A model generated the notes under the pieces. The model saw nothing but the letters and a program-made list of their open reading frames with translations, had not been told where the DNA came from and searched no databases. A program made the position numbers and the translations under genes. This document shows positions 59,946-60,494 of a DNA stretch of 64,000 nucleotides, in pieces. The DNA is from Meloidogyne chitwoodi (Eukaryota > Nematoda > Chromadorea > Rhabditida > Meloidogynidae): assembly GCA_015183035.1 (NCBI GenBank), contig JACZZP010000009.1:1922001-1986000 (forward strand). The letters run 5' to 3'. Position 1 is the stretch's first letter. Every line of letters begins with the position of its first letter.

Positions 59946-60494
59946 ATGCGCTCCTCATCCTCCCGCAATCAAGTTTCAGACGAATGCGCTCTCATTCTAG
60001 GCTGCTCTGTTAAATCTCTAAGAGATAATTTGAACCATCCTGATAATAGAGCCCTTGTTTTGAAGACACTGCTAGGGCGAAAAGTTCAAACTACATACAA
60101 AGATAAAAATGGATTTAGAAAAACTTTTCTGATTGATGGTCTAACAAGAAGAGGAGCAAGTTCAATGAAATCATATGGAAGATTACCTTTTCCATATAAT
60201 GTGAGCGTTGCAGCTCACTTTTATGCGCGCCATCGAATTCGTTTGAGATATCCTTATCTCCACTGCATTATTGAACGATTTCCATTTGGAGGAGAGGATA
60301 GATTTTATCCTTTGGAGCTGCTCGAATTTGTTAAGGAGAAGAGTAAGGAGGAGAAGAAAAAGGAGCAGACTAATAAATGGATGGATCATCTCTTTTTGGA
60401 TATGTCTGAAAAGTGTAAAATATTCGATGAGCAAGAAAAAATAAAGAATGATGAAGATTTGTATTGTTATAGTGGAGATTTAAGTCAGTGGTGA
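59946..60494 (+). CDS. Free-standing PAZ-domain protein (Argonaute/Dicer small-RNA 3'-end binding module)
   Basis: 182 aa, no introns. Residues about 40-140 follow the PAZ pattern from end to end: LKTLLGRKVQTTYK (entry strand), FLIDGLTRRGAS (as VxNVTRRPAS in Argonautes), NVSVAAHFYARHRIRLRYPY L (as tVAqYFk.r..L.LRYPhLP) and FYPLELLEFV (as YLPLEvCnIV). The Arg-Tyr-Pro and x-P-L-E landmarks are kept. The Argonaute Pro after RYPxL is His here. After the domain comes a charged Lys/Glu helix and an acidic end; there is no MID, PIWI, RNase III or helicase part. PAZ domains hold the 2-nt 3' overhang of small RNAs. It could sequester host siRNAs, compete with Argonaute, or use small RNAs for the element's own ends. 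Domain identity is strong by eye; function is inference. Confidence 0.8.
   Translation: MRSSSSRNQVSDECALILGCSVKSLRDNLNHPDNRALVLKTLLGRKVQTTYKDKNGFRKTFLIDGLTRRGASSMKSYGRLPFPYNVSVAAHFYARHRIRLRYPYLHCIIERFPFGGEDRFYPLELLEFVKEKSKEEKKKEQTNKWMDHLFLDMSEKCKIFDEQEKIKNDEDLYCYSGDLSQW

Follow-up and report, generated by a model that had tools for sequence, protein, structure and literature searches.

The question raised by the locus analysed here is what a PAZ domain, known from Argonautes, does as a separate gene of a transposon. The locus lies in a 64,000-nucleotide stretch of the Meloidogyne chitwoodi genome (contig JACZZP010000009.1, positions 1,922,001 to 1,986,000; hereafter the window), where a Polinton carries, at 59946-60494 on the forward strand, a gene for a protein of 182 amino acids. 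This protein is a PAZ domain, nearest to those of the AGO clade, that stands alone inside a nematode Polinton. In the following we present the evidence on the gene, its spread, its origin and its conservation, and then weigh what the protein may do.

A stand-alone PAZ gene

The reading frame runs from an ATG to a TGA through 182 uninterrupted codons, and the intact gene claimed in an earlier note on this DNA is confirmed at exactly these coordinates, with no internal stop. In the Pfam search the protein matches the PAZ family PF02170 over residues 33-138 (E 1e-7, 32.4 bits against a cut-off of 28.8), and no second Pfam family was found in it at E <= 0.1. In the predicted structural model the alignment with the PAZ fold spans residues 7-132. 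The mean predicted local distance difference test score (pLDDT) of the model is 81, with ten-residue means of 85-97 for residues 11-130 and of 46-67 beyond residue 130, where the domain gives way to a low-confidence tail ending in ...SGDLSQW. The earlier note had named the profile search and the fold prediction beforehand as checks of its PAZ assignment; both came out in favour of the assignment, and the opposite outcome was seen in neither. The domain is thus real, but it is longer than the residues 40-140 first proposed, extending over about residues 7-132.

At the level of the family, a 22-member profile aligns with human AGO2 starting at AGO2 residue 229 (E 2.9e-11). One family profile included two group C members (L041 and L042), and its E-values refer to a search of only a small number of translated segments. 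With PF02170 itself, some relatives score below the cut-off, namely P0064 of group C (25.1), P0081 of group B (20.2) and P0060 (23.8).

By coordinates, none of the 38 genomic PIWI rows falls inside the window or at any Polinton cluster, and thus the PAZ gene stands alone, as the earlier note had held in stating that it has no catalytic Argonaute part. The joint presence of PIWI and PAZ that marks an Argonaute is not found in the Polinton PAZ gene. By contrast with the AGO-clade Argonautes in which PF02170 is found (human AGO1 and AGO2, Drosophila Ago1), the Polinton protein is without PIWI and is too short for the other Argonaute domains.

Presence across Polintons

Clusters were formed by joining hits less than 8 kb apart, and some of them hold two or three elements. 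PAZ is present in all 24 clusters that match the family B DNA polymerase (PolB), the integrase, the ATPase and the capsid candidate, in 38 of the 44 that have the latter three, and in 28 of the 32 PolB clusters. Since 35 of the 40 PAZ matches in the genome lie in clusters with another Polinton gene, their distribution exceeds chance. The earlier note had named absence of the gene from every other copy of this Polinton family as a result that would refute it; such absence is not seen, the gene being present in all 24 complete clusters.

Fragments at already listed loci were left out of the cluster counts (25 of 63 for PolB, 8 of 62 for the capsid candidate, 5 of 64 for the ATPase and 10 of 72 for the integrase), as were eight more integrase rows, consisting of one 40-residue piece and, elsewhere, seven matches with 25-27% identity; 26 of the 46 Pfam PAZ rows coincide with protein-query rows and were counted once. 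Nor should the copies be taken as independent of one another: contigs C16 and C17 nearly agree in length and in PAZ position and perhaps represent one locus twice. With the PolB query, which covered 48 of the 143 candidates, 20 of the 44 three-gene clusters show no polymerase, and because 14 of these 20 carry PAZ, the lack of PolB fails to explain the six clusters without PAZ.

In a search space of 5.8 billion proteins, match sets of 58, 80 and 32 gave 98 distinct relatives, of which 53 are named (45 from Meloidogyne, 5 from Heterodera and 3 from Globodera) and 45 are without an organism name; in the databanks many are called 'PAZ domain-containing protein' and others 'Uncharacterized'. Meloidogyne and Globodera both belong to the superfamily Tylenchoidea according to the taxonomy look-up. 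As the protein searches favour relatives that share short words, no inference of absence from other taxa is drawn. In the predicted Globodera protein P0060, PAZ is followed by a relative of the window gene at 50505 (BLASTP 3e-20). P0060 may be a true fusion or may be two adjacent genes merged by the gene predictor, and either way, fused or merely neighbouring, the Globodera PAZ adjoins a Polinton gene. PAZ is an old gene spread over the Polinton lineages found here and, via this one predicted protein, over those of Globodera.

Probable origin from an Argonaute

In a tree comprising 26 PAZs of the Polinton type and 8 from Argonautes, with several fragments among them, the two kinds are split with an ultrafast bootstrap of 92, slightly below the usual 95. 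This separation fits a single capture of PAZ from an Argonaute. The earlier note had regarded the domain as captured by this very element; capture from an Argonaute is indeed the simplest reading of the tree, but an old gene across Polinton lineages is not the cargo of one element.

Among the Argonaute PAZs compared with the family profile, that of the host Argonaute at C28:1693640 scores best (65.8 bits), before human AGO2 (44.8) and the host ALG (27.8), with some of the compared Argonautes being short pieces that score low for that reason. The host Argonaute at C28:1693640, which lies near the AGO clade and has an adjoining PIWI match, shares QTT and FYPLELL with the window protein; that it might be the RDE-1 orthologue is a guess. 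The part of PMC5934874 available to us reports an RDE-1 orthologue in root-knot nematodes and, for M. incognita and M. hapla, Argonautes of the microRNA (miRNA), RDE-1 and WAGO types, no PIWI-interacting RNA (piRNA) Argonaute having been found there; with this set, a Polinton in Meloidogyne meets small interfering RNA (siRNA) pathways.

Selection

The window copy was compared with its 75% identical counterpart at C3:368416. For this pair the ratio of nonsynonymous to synonymous substitution rates (dN/dS, NG86) is 0.12 for PAZ, 0.10 for both the ATPase and the capsid candidate, and 0.08 for the integrase, the ratio being rough because dS is high (1.4 for PAZ). Four closer pairs of other PAZ copies give 0.07 to 0.15, and the copy closest to that of the window (97%) gives 0.25 from ten changes. 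The pair C3b-C14 (1.26 from 12 changes) was unused; L012 (C14) differs at the N-terminus. These comparisons indicate that the PAZ gene is under purifying selection and is not racing, with dN being 0.26 in the tail and 0.14 in the domain.

The 3'-end pocket and the tail

The pocket was surveyed in 26 representatives with AGO2 numbering. The miRNA-interacting residues of the AGO2 PAZ domain include H271, K278, R280, F294, Y311 and H316, according to the accessible part of PMC4504477. The position of H316 is His in all 26 representatives, that of R315 is Arg in 23, that of F294 is Tyr or Phe in 24 with two gaps, that of Y311 holds Tyr in 5 and His in the other 21, and that of L339 is Tyr in all 26. 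As judged from these alignments, the part of the pocket made of His and aromatic residues appears largely kept, with part of the basic surface lost. A structure of the R315V/H316A mutant of AGO2 is present in the PDB. Besides being transposon-encoded, the Polinton protein differs from AGO-clade PAZ domains in having lost AGO2 K278 and R280 and in having its own tail.

The tail is a feature that the earlier reading of the sequence had overlooked. Of 80 homologues, 68 are net acidic over their final 40 residues. Trp stands at the C-terminus of 39 of 98 homologues, 20 of which end in Gly-Trp, as compared with a background Trp frequency of 0.75% of residues (first 80 proteins). Every one of the 23 genomic copies of group A (L009-L031, which encode 16 distinct proteins) has the Trp end, which is absent among the group B and C members examined. 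By analogy, such a tail could be a hook for Argonautes of the glycine-tryptophan (GW) type, or one resembling those of phage single-strand-binding proteins, whose tails contact the polymerase.

The Polinton and its surroundings

The Polinton extends from 49811 to the window-equivalent position 66524 (16,714 bp), with most of it within the window. Its left terminal inverted repeat (49811-50384, forward strand, 574 bp; 575 bp in BLAST, which includes one flanking base) is 100% identical to the right one, which lies beyond the window end (L074 2052-2625 = C30:1987951-1988524). The target-site duplication AATGCT, read directly, is at 49805-49810 with its second copy at L074 2626-2631. The identity of the 574-bp repeats suggests that the insertion is recent. 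The features by which a Polinton is recognised, long terminal inverted repeats, a 6-bp target duplication and a family B DNA polymerase, are all found. The polymerase gene (61128-63977, reverse strand; DNA_pol_B_2 E 1.8e-35), whose 1433-codon frame continues past the window, is convergent with the PAZ gene.

The integrase, ATPase and protease candidates match the families expected of a Polinton, every match lying under the Pfam cut-offs. On the forward strand there are a 213-residue gene (50505-51146), a relative of which stands behind PAZ in P0060; a packaging-type ATPase candidate (51185-51835; weak Pox_A32 and Adeno_IVa2 matches; 64 genomic matches); a retroviral-type integrase candidate with a chromodomain-like end (53336-54427; rve E 2.3e-4, Chromo E 0.025; 72 genomic matches); a 443-residue gene (56923-58254; 62 genomic matches, no Pfam family above cut-off), here called a capsid candidate as a putative label; and an adenovirus-type protease candidate (58644-59096; Peptidase_C5 E 0.0021). 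The protease frame shares 80 bases with the open frame at 58289-58723, the two being read in different frames. A G(I/V)TL...TR...FVP(Y/F)D stretch occurs twice, in similar form, in the 213-residue gene, which also has a CxxC. Low-complexity repeats occur as EEQNKEQN in the PolB frame near the window end and as KKEEKKEEQ...NVLSTIGLGKK in a 644-residue gene (54472-56406, forward strand).

At two other loci, C1:720865-732773 and C6:102903-118529, PolB is 87-90% identical to that of the window and the other genes are 52-81% identical, and the comparison points to module exchange between Polinton lineages there. Near-perfect spacerless palindromes (99.3-99.8%) are seen in three of four stretches tested in Polinton loci, at C6:113700-115938, C12:2249300-2254492 and C26:502900-506027 (L084, L085 and L086). 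The PolB end and the ATPase-capsid end are each represented among them. They resemble products of snap-back replication, though fold-backs made in assembly could also account for them.

Elsewhere in the window, 30719-36703 (forward strand) encodes a Helitron protein of 1994 amino acids with a Ulp1-type protease domain before the Helitron_like_N and PIF1 helicase parts, and 1351-2166 (reverse strand) is a 271-residue open frame made mostly of LESET repeats.

What the protein may do

The best reading, to which we give a nearly even chance, is that the product is a free 3'-end-binding protein that antagonises host RNA interference (RNAi). RNAi is a main nematode defence against viruses and transposons. 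The reading draws on the known business of PAZ domains, the largely kept pocket, the siRNA-based host defence and the upkeep of the gene in all complete clusters. In such a mechanism, PAZ would have been taken, probably once, from an AGO-clade nematode Argonaute and since then retained by the Polintons of tylenchoid nematodes as one of their regular genes. The protein would hold the small RNAs that target the element by their 2-nt 3' overhangs or single-stranded 3' ends, or, as an alternative step, compete with an RDE-1-like Argonaute for small-RNA 3' ends, and the antagonism would act during transcription, replication and packaging of the element. The donor, the binding of nucleic acid, small RNAs as ligand and the antagonism are what we infer here.

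Several points weigh against the RNAi antagonist. Two basic contacts (K278 and R280) among the six listed AGO2 PAZ residues are not retained in the 26 representatives, and the H271 position is Tyr in 24 of them and His in 2. The PAZ dN/dS lies near that of the ATPase, integrase and capsid candidate on the same pair, and thus the signature of an arms race is absent. Presence in all complete clusters is equally expected of a replication or virion gene. The BFVD search gave no viral analogue at E <= 0.001, and hence no known one backs the function. Small-RNA binding, titration of siRNAs and a block of Argonaute loading are predicted roles only.

The main rival, which we consider unlikely though deserving of attention, is a replication factor, in which the PAZ pocket would grip the 3' end of the displaced DNA strand or the template terminus of the element in protein-primed replication, with the acidic tail touching the polymerase. 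PAZ lies beside PolB in many clusters and is present in 28 of the 32 PolB clusters, and the low dN/dS and the net acidic, often Trp-ended tail would also suit such a role. Moreover, the PAZ pocket can accept DNA, since the title of 1si2 describes a crystal of an AGO PAZ together with a deoxynucleotide overhang and a passage of the review PMC6361761 states that DNA binds the AGO2 PAZ domain. However, at C1:720865 the identity to the window is 90% for PolB and 52% for PAZ, with 78% for the capsid candidate, 75% for the integrase and 81% for the ATPase, so that PolB was seemingly exchanged without PAZ; in the group C clusters the PAZ gene comes after the capsid candidate; and the group B and C members examined lack the Trp end.

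Little credence is given to a structural or regulatory role independent of nucleic-acid ends, in which the PAZ fold would be reused for protein contacts. The loss of two of the six contact residues would be in line with it, as would the joining of PAZ with the 50505-type protein, a possible partner, in the predicted Globodera protein; by contrast, the alignment columns of the pocket His and aromatic residues rank with the best conserved ones in the family. We give least credence to an Argonaute adaptor or decoy, in which the Trp-ended acidic tail would dock on host PIWI as a GW hook and PAZ would make a further contact, so that Argonautes are either blocked or recruited. In spite of the Trp enrichment and the uniformly Trp-ended group A copies, there is a single terminal Trp where known GW proteins carry spaced ones, and its absence in the group B and C members examined means that a hook is not the common function.

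Relation to known systems and implications

With the nematode Polinton/Maverick elements described in the literature searched, the present ones share the long terminal inverted repeats, the 6-bp target duplication, PolB and the integrase, ATPase and protease candidates, and differ from them in the PAZ gene of the 24 complete clusters. No title or abstract in that literature describes a PAZ gene in Polintons, with the nematode-polinton survey (Jeong 2023) being outside its coverage and priority hence uncertain. In the available parts of PMC6361761 and PMC6128900 both 'PAZ domain' and 'Polinton' occur, separately placed and never linked; the main text of PMC11071308 and PMC11071296 contains neither PAZ nor Argonaute; and the available part of PMC4901422 mentions the PAZ domain once, for an Argonaute tree, with no Maverick or Polinton.

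If the RNAi-antagonist reading is true, the protein would have the same ligand as the siRNA-binding viral suppressors of RNA silencing. The folds of those suppressors are unrelated to PAZ, whereas the putative role here is that of a host Argonaute domain turned on its own pathway. We regard it as possible, though with more doubt than the antagonism itself, that a whole lineage of these virus-like transposons, shared by root-knot and cyst nematodes, has domesticated from the antiviral Argonaute of the host the domain that grips 3' ends, and retains it, as an obligatory gene, to disarm silencing by siRNAs. If instead the replication factor is true, a PAZ domain would be employed outside RNA silencing proteins, a use of which we know of no description. 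In the literature searched we found no account of how nematode Polintons cope with RNAi, and a conserved Argonaute fragment within the elements makes the relation between Polintons and RNAi directly testable via one small protein.
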